This document shows, piece after piece, positions 32,589 to 62,367 of a DNA stretch of 64,000 nucleotides. Under the pieces are notes generated by a model. The model was not told where the DNA came from. It saw only the letters and a list, made by a program, of their open reading frames with translations, and ran no database searches. Both the position numbers and the translations under genes were made by a program. Source of the DNA: a virus; IMG/VR virus record IMGVR_UViG_3300029787_000003, positions 3,236-67,235 of that record; one strand, written 5' to 3'. Within the stretch, counting starts at the first letter, position 1, and every line of letters starts with the position of its first letter.

Positions 32589-32755
32589 ACTGTTGGCACT
32601 GTAATACTGAACTCATATGGGGATCAGATTTTGATGCTGAAGACTATGGATGTGAAGAAGAGTATTCTATTGTAAGTAATCTCTCATGTCCTAAGTGTGA
32701 ATCGTTTGTGCAAGTGTATTATCCTAATGAAGATCAAAGACAAGTTTCTAGATAA
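32585..32755 (+). CDS. Small zinc-ribbon protein
   Basis: The 56-aa product has two CxxC pairs: MNCWHCNTEL at the N-terminus and LSCPKCES near residue 37, the pattern of a zinc ribbon. An acidic segment lies between (DFDAEDYGCEEE). It overlaps the previous gene (ATGA) and the next gene starts inside it at 32727. Similar short zinc-ribbon proteins occur in cyanophages; a nucleic-acid or protein-binding role is possible. Confidence 0.75.
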   Translation: MNCWHCNTELIWGSDFDAEDYGCEEEYSIVSNLSCPKCESFVQVYYPNEDQRQVSR

Positions 32756-33236
32756 ACTAACTTTTCATAGAATTAAAACAGTTATTTTTAATCAAATTGA
32801 AACTCCTTGGATGTGTATCAAGGATATTTCTGGTGAAGGTAAGGAGAAAGATTGTTACTTCACTCATACATTATTTGAAACTCATATGAATGAGGACAAG
32901 GAACTATATTATAATGGGTTTCCTTGTAGTCCTCATCATTGGATTGCAGATATATTGAAAGAGGCTATAGGTGCAGAAACATTAATTAGAGTAAAGGCAA
33001 ATCTATATCCTAGAACAGATATTTTACATAGTCATAGACCTCATAAAGATTATAAATTTGATCACAAGGCAGCATTGCTATCTTTGAATACATGTAATGG
33101 TCATACTAATGTTGATGGTACAAAAGTTGAGTCTGTTAAAAACAGAATGTTATTCTTCAACCCTCAAATCACACACAACAGTACTAACTGTACTGATGAA
33201 CAGTTTAGATGTAACATCAATATTAATTACATGTAA
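32727..33236 (+). CDS. 2OG-Fe(II) oxygenase-like protein
   Basis: With the ATG at 32727 the product is 169 aa. The C-terminal half carries the dioxygenase-type strands RVKANLYPRTDILHSHRPHKDY (His-rich metal region), AALLSLNTCNGHTNV, and NRMLFFNPQITHNSTNC with a distal His, followed by RCNININY. This is the usual HxH/D ... H ... R order of the 2OG family as seen in cyanophages. The last gene before an intergenic regulatory region. Substrate unknown. Confidence 0.68.
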   Translation: MKIKDKFLDKLTFHRIKTVIFNQIETPWMCIKDISGEGKEKDCYFTHTLFETHMNEDKELYYNGFPCSPHHWIADILKEAIGAETLIRVKANLYPRTDILHSHRPHKDYKFDHKAALLSLNTCNGHTNVDGTKVESVKNRMLFFNPQITHNSTNCTDEQFRCNININYM

Positions 33237-33314: not shown

Positions 33315-33332
33315 TTGTAACACATGTTACAA
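33315..33332 (+). promoter_or_regulatory. Candidate NtcA-binding palindrome (GTA-N8-TAC)
   Basis: TTGTAACACATGTTACAA is a perfect 7-bp dyad and contains GTA-ACACATGT-TAC, the exact consensus of the cyanobacterial nitrogen regulator NtcA. It lies in the 199-bp gap before two small conserved genes. A TATACT box (33346-33351, TAN3T form) lies 15-16 bp downstream, and TTGACT (33339-33344) with TAGTAT 17 bp later is a second promoter reading. The usual NtcA spacing to the -10 is about 22 bp, so activation geometry is uncertain. Confidence 0.55.
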
Positions 33333-33382
33333 TATTACTTGACTATATACTATAACTGTGTTAGTATTAACACAATCGTTCA

Positions 33383-33435
33383 ACCTGATACATTCAGGTC
33401 GCAAGTAAGCCGACTCGGAACGGATCGTTCATCCT
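33383..33435 (+). ncRNA. Structured 5' leader of the small-protein pair
   Basis: Two perfect hairpins precede the ATG at 33436: ACCTGA/TCAGGT (stem 33383-33388 with 33394-33399, loop 5 nt) and GAACG/CGTTC (33418-33422 with 33426-33430, loop 3 nt), the second next to the start. GGAACGGAT is repeated at 33417-33425 and 33637-33645, before each of the two small genes. This suggests a cis-acting leader element; no regulator is known to me. Confidence 0.45.
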
Positions 33436-33633
33436 ATGATTGAAACCTTGATTGCTGCATCAACTGCTGTTACTACTTTAGTTACAGTATCATGCACCGA
33501 CATTAATACTCTTGTAGATCGTGCTAAGGTCTATCCAGACATTAGCGATAAAGATAGACAGGAAATTATTGATCTATATTATGATTTTGCTGAAAGGCAA
33601 GGATTAGATTGTAAGGACGCAAAAGCCGACTAA
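33436..33633 (+). CDS. Small protein with hydrophobic N-terminus, unknown function
   Basis: The 65-aa product begins MIETLIAASTAVTTLVTVSC: a hydrophobic/Thr-rich stretch ending in Cys that could be a signal or lipobox-like sequence. A charged region follows (YPDISDKDRQEIIDLYYDFAERQ). It is first in the pair behind the NtcA-like site and leader. No family recognised; secretion is only a possibility. Confidence 0.6.
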   Translation: MIETLIAASTAVTTLVTVSCTDINTLVDRAKVYPDISDKDRQEIIDLYYDFAERQGLDCKDAKAD

Positions 33634-33674
33634 AGGAACGGATTTAAAAACCCAACTACTTTAGGAGTACCATC

Positions 33675-33797
33675 ATGGCACAAGTCACATACAGAGGTAT
33701 CAAGTACGATACCAACGACAAAAAGCAAACTAACTCTAACAAGGTTCAAGAATCTTATAGAGGTATCAAGTTTGAGAAGGAAGTTGTTACTGCATAG
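33675..33797 (+). CDS. DUF4278-type mini-protein with duplicated YRGIK motif
   Basis: The 40-aa product (MAQVTYRGIKYDTN ... SYRGIKFEKE) contains two copies of the TYRGIxY core of DUF4278, a short domain of cyanobacteria and their phages. The AGGAG ribosome-binding site is 7 bases before the ATG. It lies between the small protein above and a strong terminator. Function is unknown; the motif itself is a host-range hint. Confidence 0.78.
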   Translation: MAQVTYRGIKYDTNDKKQTNSNKVQESYRGIKFEKEVVTA

Positions 33798-33817
33798 TAT
33801 CAATTCCTGATATATCT

Positions 33818-33848
33818 AAGAGCATCTCTTGACAGATGCTCTTTTTTT
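33818..33848 (+). terminator. Rho-independent terminator
   Basis: A 10-bp perfect stem AAGAGCATCT/AGATGCTCTT with a 6-nt loop is followed directly by a T-run. It closes the small-protein pair transcript and separates it from the thyX operon. Confidence 0.9.
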
Positions 33849-36796: not shown

Positions 36797-36993
36797 TGCC
36801 TACTAAATCTGAATTAACACATTATCGTCTTCAAGCAATGCTTAGGGAACATAGTTTCCCTGACCTTGAATATATTGGAGAACGCAAGAGTTGGAAATCA
36901 GGAGAACTTGAACATTGGTATCGTATAGGAAAGGCAGAAGTTCCTGTAGATGCTATTACAGAATTGGATATGGAAAAGGATGAAACAGATTGA
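36796..36993 (+). CDS. Conserved-looking small protein, unknown function
   Basis: The ATG at 36796 overlaps the gp33 stop (TAATG), giving 65 aa: MPTKSELTHYRLQAMLREHS, then YIGERKSWKSGELEHWYRIG and an acidic end. A basic aromatic helix pair is likely. No family recognised; position between gp33 and gp59 suggests a replication/transcription accessory. Confidence 0.6.
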   Translation: MPTKSELTHYRLQAMLREHSFPDLEYIGERKSWKSGELEHWYRIGKAEVPVDAITELDMEKDETD

Positions 36994-37606
36994 AGTATTG
37001 CCTCAGACCATATATCAGTTTGAAGCAGATCCAAGGATCACAGAAACAGCATTAGAATTACTTAAAAAAGAAGAATTAATTCAACAGGGAAATGCTGAGG
37101 GTTATGAAGTTTCTGGAATGACTGAAGATGCTCGTCTTAATCTTAGGCCTGAATATGCAGATATCATGGATTGGATTCATGAGTGTTTAGATGAAGTAAG
37201 ATTAATAAAGAATTTGCAATGTGAACGTCTACAAATTACTCAGTCTTGGGGTGTTACTACCACATATAATACACACCAATATAAGCATTATCACACCAAC
37301 TCTTATATCAGTGGTGTTTTTTATTTGACAAATTCACCTACAGGAACTACACTATATCATAATAGTATATGGGAACAGGAGAATCCTCCATTGATGACTG
37401 TTAGACATCTTGCAGAGTCTCGTGATCTTACCCATAAAGTACGTGCAAAAGCAGGTACTTTAGTTTTATTTCCTTCTGCCTTAGAGCATGAAGTAAGACC
37501 AAGTAAAGATTTTGGTGATAGATACACTCTAGTCATTAATGCCTTTCCTTCTGGTAAAATAGGAAATTTTAGAATGTTCAATGGAATAGAAATTGAGATT
37601 AAATGA
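36980..37606 (+). CDS. 2OG-Fe(II) oxygenase (TIGR02466-like)
   Basis: With the ATG at 36980 the product is 208 aa. The metal region is THQYKHYHTNSYISGVFYLT (His cluster followed by SGVFYL). The distal His is in SALEHEVRPS, and RYTLVINAF carries the 2OG-binding Arg. The layout matches the dioxygenase at 2255. It lies between gp33 and gp59 and overlaps the latter by 4 bases, so it is part of the replication block rather than a fibre cluster. Target unknown. Confidence 0.8.
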   Translation: MKQIEVLPQTIYQFEADPRITETALELLKKEELIQQGNAEGYEVSGMTEDARLNLRPEYADIMDWIHECLDEVRLIKNLQCERLQITQSWGVTTTYNTHQYKHYHTNSYISGVFYLTNSPTGTTLYHNSIWEQENPPLMTVRHLAESRDLTHKVRAKAGTLVLFPSALEHEVRPSKDFGDRYTLVINAFPSGKIGNFRMFNGIEIEIK

Positions 37607-38524: not shown

Positions 38525-38542
38525 GTCAATGTATGGTATAAT
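38514..38542 (+). promoter_or_regulatory. Consensus sigma70 promoter of gp32 (TTGACA - 17 bp - TATAAT)
   Basis: Both hexamers are perfect: TTGACA at 38514-38519 and TATAAT at 38537-38542 with a 17-bp spacer. It overlaps the end of the DUF1825-type gene and lies 39 bp before the gp32 ATG. Two tandem CCAATTAAT copies (38551-38569 region) follow in the 5' UTR. Confidence 0.88.
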
Positions 38543-38581
38543 ACAAACATCCAATTAATCCAATTAATCCGAGGTATCCTA

Positions 38582-61061: not shown

Positions 61062-61084
61062 ACAAATAACTGTTGATATGTCTT

Positions 61085-61669
61085 ATGACCAGTGAGAGTG
61101 AATTAATTAGAAGATATAAAGGTGTCTTTTCAAAAGAGAGATGTAAGAAAATAATGAGACACTTAGATTACTTAGAGAATAATAGTCTATTATTTTATGA
61201 TAAAAGAAATCTTCATATGGAAGATCATCTAACTCTCAATGCAACTTTGGATTACGAGATAGATTTGACTGCAACTACGAGAGTAGCAGAAGAAATACTC
61301 CCAATGCTTAAAAAACCAGTTGATGAATACTTAGAGACTGTTAGTATTCTTAAATCAAGTAGATTCTTGTGCTATGATTGTAAGATAAAGAAAATCCCTC
61401 AAGGTGGAGGGTTTCATAATTGGCATTTTGAAAATGGTGTTATAGGTGCAACACCAAGAACTTTTGTGATACAAGTATATCTTAATGATGACTTTGAGGG
61501 TGGTGAGACAGAATTTTTATATCAGAATAGAAGAGAACAAGCAGTACAGGGTGATGTTTTAATTTTCCCTGCAGGATTTACACATACTCATAGGGGTAAT
61601 CCACCAATAGGAGGAACAAAATATCTTGCTACAACGTGGGCTATTATTCAACCACCTGATGATAATTAA
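61085..61669 (+). CDS. 2OG-Fe(II) dioxygenase (prolyl 4-hydroxylase-like)
   Basis: The ATG at 61085 gives 194 aa (TTG at 61073 is less likely). The P4H pattern is clear: IKKIPQGGGFHNWHFENG with His114-x-Glu116 as the metal pair (most members have HxD). Then VIQVYLNDDFEGGETEF, GDVLIFPAGFTHTHRG with the distal His (His167 or His169), and GGTKYLATTW with Lys179 as the 2-oxoglutarate contact. Cyanophages often carry such enzymes, target unknown. First of three dioxygenases in a row, overlapping the second by one base. Confidence 0.86.
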   Translation: MTSESELIRRYKGVFSKERCKKIMRHLDYLENNSLLFYDKRNLHMEDHLTLNATLDYEIDLTATTRVAEEILPMLKKPVDEYLETVSILKSSRFLCYDCKIKKIPQGGGFHNWHFENGVIGATPRTFVIQVYLNDDFEGGETEFLYQNRREQAVQGDVLIFPAGFTHTHRGNPPIGGTKYLATTWAIIQPPDDN

Positions 61670-62367
61670 TGGCTCAAGTTTTTAATGTATTTCCAACTAC
61701 GATAGTTGTTGATGTAATGCAGGGACATAACAAATATCTTGAAGATTTTGAAAAAGTATATCCAAAATATGATTATGCACCTGAGATACATGATAATGGA
61801 TATGTTTATAACACCACTACGAGTGAAAACTTTGGTAATCCTTTATTACATACAGATAAAGAACTAGAGGATATGTTTGGTGAGATTGCTTATAATGTAA
61901 AAAAGTATATCTATGAGGTACTAGATTATAAAAGAATATTTAATATTGTTATTACTAAGAGTTGGTTATCTAGGTCTAGAAAATCTGAAGATGAAATTGT
62001 TTGGCACGATCATTCTGCAAGTCAAATATCTTTTGTATATTATTTAAAAACACCACCAAATTCACACGTATTGAAGTTCCTTACCCCTGATAATACTAAT
62101 AGTGTGTTTAGAGGTAATAATACCAGTGAGTATAAACATGGTATTGAGAATTTTAATTTAGTAAATTCTTCTACATTCTTTATAGAACCAGTAGCGGGAA
62201 GTTTAATTATGTTTCCAAGTAAAGTAAAACATTGTACACACTCAATAGATGATAATTTTGAGGGTGAAAGATTGGCTATCGTTGGTGATGTTACATTAGT
62301 ATATAATCCTAATATTTTAGATTATTCTCAGGGATACATACATCCTAATTACTGGAAGGTTTATTAG
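61669..62367 (+). CDS. 2OG-Fe(II) dioxygenase (TIGR02466-like)
   Basis: The 232-aa product begins AQVFNVFPTTIVVDV. Its metal region is VWHDHSASQISFVYYL (His113-Asp114-His115). The distal His is in MFPSKVKHCTHS, followed by an Arg in ERLAIVGD. It follows the P4H-like gene and precedes a third dioxygenase by a TAGTG overlap. The same type as the 2255 and 36980 products by layout, but sequences differ. Substrate unknown. Confidence 0.8.
   Translation: MAQVFNVFPTTIVVDVMQGHNKYLEDFEKVYPKYDYAPEIHDNGYVYNTTTSENFGNPLLHTDKELEDMFGEIAYNVKKYIYEVLDYKRIFNIVITKSWLSRSRKSEDEIVWHDHSASQISFVYYLKTPPNSHVLKFLTPDNTNSVFRGNNTSEYKHGIENFNLVNSSTFFIEPVAGSLIMFPSKVKHCTHSIDDNFEGERLAIVGDVTLVYNPNILDYSQGYIHPNYWKVY

Follow-up and report, generated by a model that had tools for sequence, protein, structure and literature searches.

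Does a cyanophage read the nitrogen status of its host at a short dyad between two of its genes? The question is raised by a stretch of 64 kb (the window) from a 152-kb viral contig; of the named relatives found, the single-cell marine virus AG-345-L05 is the nearest. In the original prediction, made from the letters of the window, the dyad was taken for a site of the host regulator NtcA at which the phage senses host nitrogen. This suggestion gains strong support from a glutamine riboswitch 45 nt downstream of the dyad, but the geometry of the promoter is unlike that of a classical NtcA-activated one. Our main reading, to which we give a probability of roughly 0.6, is that positions 33315-33843 make up a cyanophage operon, complete in itself, at which two nitrogen signals of the host are read. 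The features upstream of the riboswitch are as follows.

33315-33332, + strand: putative NtcA box, TTGTAACA-CA-TGTTACAA; conserved upstream in 52/89 promoters, its half-site matching host glnA boxes
33339-33344, + strand: -35 element TTGACT, 8 nt after the box; the gap is 8 nt in 38/52 boxed promoters
33357-33374, + strand: dyad TGTGTTA-GTAT-TAACACA around the -10; stem of at least 6 bp in 45/89 loci, null about 5%
33362-33367, + strand: -10 element TAGTAT, after a 17-nt spacer and 31 nt after TAC; TAN3T is at 31 nt in 37/52 boxed promoters

The box is the 18-mer TTGTAACACATGTTACAA (+ strand). It had been described as an exact dyad, but the symmetry is imperfect: the two arms pair over 8 bp with perfect complementarity, the 2-bp CA centre breaks it with a mismatched C/A pair, and the reverse complement of the 18-mer matches itself with 2 mismatches. 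The motif GTA-N8-TAC lies inside it at 33317-33330 and is indeed intergenic; by simple gene calls, just one more copy in the window lies between genes. This second copy (38531-38544, GTATGGTATAATAC) contains TATAAT and is just upstream of the gp32 gene (38582). There are 39 copies of GTA-N8-TAC in the window, compared to 19 expected from shuffles, and nearly all are within genes; a single copy by itself is weak evidence of an NtcA site. The window holds no second copy of the 18-mer within 3 mismatches, its own reverse complement excepted, and the exact 18-mer is present also in one other viral locus (L079).

Viral contigs were scanned for the glutamine aptamer described below, the box not being used as a criterion, and the upstream regions were then examined. 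An exact GTA-N8-TAC starts 52-62 nt before the aptamer in 52 of the 112 nonredundant viral loci listed, where 0.49 would be expected. Among the promoters of composite elements (89 nonredundant, among the loci listed), 52 have the box at this distance, compared to 0.59% at random positions, and 37 lack the exact box. That the box is fixed in position and spacing across so many cyanophage promoters is a strong argument against chance. The dyad had been staked on its conservation upstream of orthologous genes, and it is kept in about 60% of the cyanophage orthologues; the genes downstream of it are, as predicted, small conserved cyanophage genes.

The consensus around the box across the aligned promoters is AATTGTATCACAAGTTACAAAA, with a strict GTA/TAC flanked by TTG..CAA. 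The window promoter, TTGACT-N17-TAGTAT, is the exact mode of the family (gap 8, -10 at 31). The TATACT that had been pointed out near the dyad exists at 33346-33351, but it is only 15 nt after TAC and is not a conserved -10, a role that is ruled out by the spacing across the 52 aligned promoters. It is worth adding two observations on this promoter. The -35 region (33339-33349 in the window) reads TTGACTAWATA in most loci, with TAWATA in 42/52; this resembles a T4-type late promoter overlapping the -35, and the unit may have two promoters. The arms of the dyad around the -10 vary by locus in the upstream regions of loci L001-L120 (GGTC..GACC, TGTGTTA..TAACACA, GGTATG..CATACC), with complementarity often retained. 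This is an unusual pattern for the site of a protein, and would be in keeping with a hairpin formed in late or read-through RNA.

Class II NtcA promoters have a TAN3T -10 about 20-24 nt after TAC, and the box replaces the -35. Picocyanobacterial glnA promoters, a family reached from a Prochlorococcus single-cell genome, have GTA-N8-TAC with TAN3T at 22-23 nt in 22/30 loci. The right half of their box is TTGATACAAAA, and the phage TTGTATCA is complementary to their half-site, TGTATCA/TGATACA being common to both. The window promoter shares with this NtcA-activated class II promoter the GTA-N8-TAC box and the half-site, and to that extent the claim of an NtcA consensus is borne out. It differs in that its -10 is 31 nt after TAC and in having a full -35 as well as the box, which stands one helical turn further upstream than in the host glnA promoters. 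With the box outside the classical 22-23 nt distance, activation is not assured.

The box could also be the site of something other than NtcA, either an AT-rich upstream element or the site of another CRP-family regulator. The motif is a loose one, as its 39 window copies attest, and 41% of the promoters have it absent or degenerate; however, its fixed phase to the -35, the strict GTA/TAC with TTG..CAA flanks, and the half-site common to host glnA promoters make this reading unlikely.

The same pairing of box and riboswitch is found in the host. In genes under host type II glutamine riboswitches, which are mostly DUF4278-like, the box is 18-20 nt before the aptamer, near +1, in 28/29 loci, and it lies 45-75 nt upstream in 0/29. 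Phage and host alike couple a GTA-N8-TAC box to a glutamine riboswitch, at different positions. In host loci L306-L331 a second conserved element, TTTTGTATC-N5-GTGAACTACA, is often found about 70 nt before the type II riboswitches. The position of the phage box upstream of an intact -35 suggests activation, and that of the host box near +1 suggests repression, both signs being read from position. We regard it as somewhat unlikely that NtcA binds the phage box but represses, or only modulates. The host box near +1 would block RNA polymerase, NtcA represses gifA and gifB (PMC7760959), and -51 differs from the classical activating position; against this, the phage box is upstream of the -35 and clear of the promoter core, and none of the 29 host loci has a box at that position. 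Activation remains the preferred reading.

As early as 2010, cyanomyoviruses were proposed to have NtcA sites with a link to 2-oxoglutarate (PMC3037559). The idea of phages exploiting host NtcA and 2-oxoglutarate is the same there, but that work lists sites and makes no mention of riboswitches, whereas in the window the box is coupled to one. The presence of six 2-oxoglutarate dioxygenases in the window had been offered as part of the case; among 20 window proteins scanned, four 2OG-Fe(II) oxygenases pass a Pfam cut-off (2255-2920, 36950-37606, 61073-61669 and 61669-62367). The gene just upstream of the dyad (32697-33236) has the position of the P-SSM2 phytanoyl-CoA dioxygenase gene and matched no Pfam family.

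Downstream of the promoter, the unit contains the following.

33375-33426, + strand: part recognised by Rfam as RF01739; 35.1 bits, cut-off 35
33377-33640, + strand: composite nested glutamine riboswitch; outer P1 33377-33381 with 33636-33640; E-loop AGTA 33404-33407 and AAA 33632-33634
33383-33399, + strand: P2 hairpin ACCTG/CAGGT; in some other phages it hosts a gene
33408-33416, + strand: P3 5' strand AGCCGACTC; T33415 pairs with A33624
33417-33430, + strand: inner P1 hairpin GAACG-GAT-CGTTC, 33418-33422 with 33426-33430; invariant, so without covariation information
33432-33435, + strand: P2' 5' strand TCCT, directly before ATG 33436; pairs with AGGA 33614-33617
33436-33633, + strand: embedded 65-aa ORF (phrog_504); lies in the loop of P2'; has two invariant Cys and a C-terminal DAKAD that aptamer sequence encodes
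33614-33634, + strand: P2' 3' strand, CGCAA, P3 3' strand (33624-33631), E-loop 3' strand; shared with the end of the ORF, its last codons and its stop
33630-33664, + strand: possible competing stem CTAAAG/CTTTAG, reaching the Shine-Dalgarno AGGAG 33663-33667; exact complement in 25/74 loci
33675-33797, + strand: gene of a 40-aa DUF4278 protein (phrog_5049); PF14105 27.6 bits, cut-off 25.3
33818-33843, + strand: predicted intrinsic terminator closing the unit

The glutamine riboswitch RF01739 is the sole Rfam family over threshold in the 64-kb window, and it passes marginally; the assignment is backed by at least 174 related viral elements. The score barely passes because the E-loop strands are split between two half-aptamers. 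A canonical glutamine aptamer has AGUA before P3 and GAA after it, and these together form the E-loop. The first half in the window has AGUA, followed directly by C-GGAACG with no GAA, and the second half, about 210 nt downstream, has CGCAAA and then AAA-GGAACG. The E-loop is therefore not found within one contiguous aptamer, and is complete only in a nested fold. The same division is seen in 94 nonredundant elements, among those listed: every first half is without the 3' E-loop strand, and every second half is without AGUA. That 3' strand is AAA in 31/94 elements, as in the window, rather than GAA. In three loci with a short spacer (L020, L045 and L067) the nested pairing is the one that the program cmscan itself chooses, the 5' part of the first half with the 3' part of the second, at up to 43.6 bits.

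In the fold that we propose, the first half would supply the outer P1 5' strand, P2 and the E-loop 5' strand, and the second the E-loop 3' and P1 3' strands, with a common P3 joining the half-aptamers and the inner P1 and P2' lying inside. Compared to the type I riboswitch RF01739 (glnA RNA), the phage RNA has the same CGUUCA / CGNAAGUA / GGAACG core and P1-P2-P3 plan, and is likewise upstream of a DUF4278 gene; it differs in the split E-loop strands, the one long P3 common to both halves, the inner P1 and P2', and the protein gene in a hairpin loop. It also resembles the type II riboswitch RF01704 (downstream-peptide, of marine picocyanobacteria) in CGUUCA and GGAACG, multiple copies, and DUF4278 control, but the window scores 26.4 bits for RF01704, below the cut-off of 33, and the host RNA has no inserted gene and has its box near +1. 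Single canonical glutamine aptamers with a complete E-loop also occur on viral contigs (L008, L033, L042, L095, L117 and others), usually before a short ORF.

The evidence for nesting comes from P3. Its variable pair (the base preceding the last C of the first strand) is GC in 82, TA in 58, AT in 21 and other in 3, which makes 161/164 Watson-Crick pairs, of three types; in the isolate P-RSM4 the strands read AUUCG/CGAAU instead of the AGUCG/CGACU of others. For the nested structure, examined on 40 sequences from a single length class, 98.4% of cells are paired, 12 pairs show double changes and the covariation is 0.356, compared to at most 0.078 for slid controls; nested P3 is 98.8% paired, with double changes at 4/6 pairs. 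This alignment was built in blocks with loops removed, so that it tests pairing and not alignment, and kinship among the sequences inflates the counts. The covariation shows the architecture to be one of two half-aptamers sharing P3.

One alternative to consider is a pair of ordinary tandem glutamine riboswitches with local P3s and a small gene in the second, the nesting being an illusion of repeats. Glutamine aptamers are already known in tandem (PMC2864571), and second elements alone score up to 40 bits. The outer and inner P1 are invariant, identical repeats, so covariation cannot directly choose between P1 partners, and tandem P1 pairing is equally possible. The local P3 of the tandem model, however, fails without compensation in 13/40 sequences (83.8% paired in those helices, 0 double changes), whereas the nested P3 is compensated, and neither half has a complete E-loop; plain tandem aptamers were rejected as the main model on the covariation of P3, and we consider them improbable. 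It is still less probable that the second half is a type II aptamer, its GGAACG placed in the CTAAAG/CTTTAG loop and pseudoknotted to CGTTC. One locus (L067) reaches 34.0 bits for RF01704, and the exact complements of this stem point the same way, but the window stays below the cut-off and the P3 covariation requires pairing with the first half. Against the nested fold itself, the window RNA with its ORF excised has an unliganded minimum-energy fold that is lower than the nested one, in a model with neither ligand nor non-canonical pairs.

The embedded ORF matches the profile of phrog_504 (E 2.9e-10), whose orthologues include T4-GC 430 and 541. A P2' loop of about 140-200 nt with an ORF is found in 62/94 elements, among those listed, and in these the ATG is 9-11 nt after the C of the second CGUUCA and the stop ends 1 nt before the final GGAACG in 59/62 (16 nt before in 3/62). 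The P2' strands flanking the ORF pair over at least 4 bp in 62/62, with compensatory pairs, compared to 0.9% at control positions. Single changes in the ORF are synonymous or nonsynonymous in the ratio 1239:704, and these counts, together with the two invariant Cys and the phrog_504 match, indicate that it is a real gene. The protein is predicted to be a helical hairpin (pLDDT 80.9 overall, from input rows without isolates), of which residues 62-65, the aptamer-encoded tail, are below 50 and predicted disordered. The tail (DAKAD/WDAND) is in frame in 59/62, and one could suppose that it is conserved as protein, its RNA likeness to the aptamer being a by-product. This is barely credible, given the predicted disorder of these residues and the fact that the same RNA is kept in the 32/94 elements with a short P2' loop and no ORF, and in the 3 loci whose stop is 15 nt earlier.

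How the unit would work can be set out in steps. Host NtcA, which is active at high 2-oxoglutarate, would bind the box, whose centre is about 51 bp before the predicted start, and to judge from the site and its geometry would raise transcription from the intact -35/-10 promoter. The transcript would open with the composite aptamer, for which family membership points to glutamine as the ligand; type I and type II aptamers alike are glutamine-binding activators (PMC6316151). In the window the P2' stem TCCT/AGGA adjoins the ATG, and in a larger set, among those listed, the AUG is wholly in the P2' stem in 37/116 and partly so in a further 67. With the start codon at or in this stem, and 1 nt between the stop and the final aptamer segment, the RNA could be translated or folded into the aptamer but would not be both at once. 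Glutamine binding would then most likely close P2', silencing the embedded gene, and draw CUAAAG off the DUF4278 ribosome site, switching DUF4278 on; these are the weakest steps. The competing stem itself covaries (CTAAAG/CTTTAG in some loci, CTGAAG/CTTCAG in others). The direction, glutamine turning the embedded gene off and DUF4278 on, is put forward tentatively, at rather less than even odds, and the folding simulation did not settle it: with the nested fold enforced in 118 loci, exposure of the DUF4278 ribosome site was not raised (mean 0.377 free against 0.349). With no consistent effect over these simulated loci, release of the ribosome site was set aside as a proven expression platform.

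The DUF4278 gene is in keeping with what is known in the host, this being the family most often under host glutamine riboswitches (PMC6316151). The nearest parallel is the gifB/IF17 unit of Synechocystis (PMC6316151), where NtcA and a glutamine riboswitch act on one small DUF4278-containing gene, as they may in the phage. The phage unit differs from gifB, which by its published description is repressed by NtcA and has a single aptamer that carries no gene.

The element is widespread in cyanophages. In at least 174 nonredundant cores, the outer and inner loops are short/ORF in 86, short/short in 36, ORF/ORF in 29 and ORF/short in 12, the rest being incomplete; all counts from the scans are lower bounds. 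Isolates with an ORF inside include P-SSM7, P-RSM6, S-SSM7, S-SSM4, S-CAM9, S-SKS1, P-TIM40, ACG-2014d and the lake phage DSL-LC03; S-PM2 and P-TIM68 have a short loop, and P-SSM4, P-HM1 and P-RSM4 have ORFs in both loops. The genes of the outer loop (T4-GC 429 and others) have as their stop the UAA of CGC-AAG-UAA, within the E-loop, in 16/43 among those listed, and one protein family can occupy either loop (inner in L003, outer in L206).

A scan of 84,980 species genomes for the pattern of the 3' half gave at least 9 matches, on chance or phage-like sequence. Three of the nine (L122, L125 and L128) are probably chance, having nothing of the rest of the element, and the others carry cyanophage-type sequence, as similarity to P-HM2-like phages shows for L130; a host origin of the composite was rejected on these grounds. 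The last of these (QCLS01000003.1, 189 kb), filed under Prochlorococcus AG-418-C09, carries P-HM2-like cyanophage genes and probably comes from an infected cell. Among the matches listed, no composite element was found outside cyanophages and phage-like contigs.

Glutamine riboswitches in cyanophages have already been listed (PMC9964418, PMC9602691). In the open-licence literature we came across neither the nested form, nor genes inside the aptamer, nor its coupling to an NtcA box, nor a riboswitch of any kind with an ORF within its aptamer. To our knowledge, riboswitches have been described as leaders ahead of genes, in contrast to which the genes here are within the aptamer, in some of the ocean's most abundant viruses. 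We propose, with a confidence just short of an even chance, that this is a gene-hosting riboswitch: interlocked glutamine half-aptamers share one helix, and each hairpin loop can carry a protein gene that starts at or in the stem and stops in the conserved core, so that ribosome and ligand would compete and glutamine would choose among up to three phage genes on an NtcA-controlled message. If the main reading is true, the virus reads 2-oxoglutarate (through NtcA) and glutamine (through RNA), separate host nitrogen signals, at one small operon, and the unannotated T4-GC 429, 430, 431, 541, 542 and 660 would share a regulatory context and acquire a role in the control of nitrogen during infection that can be put to the test.
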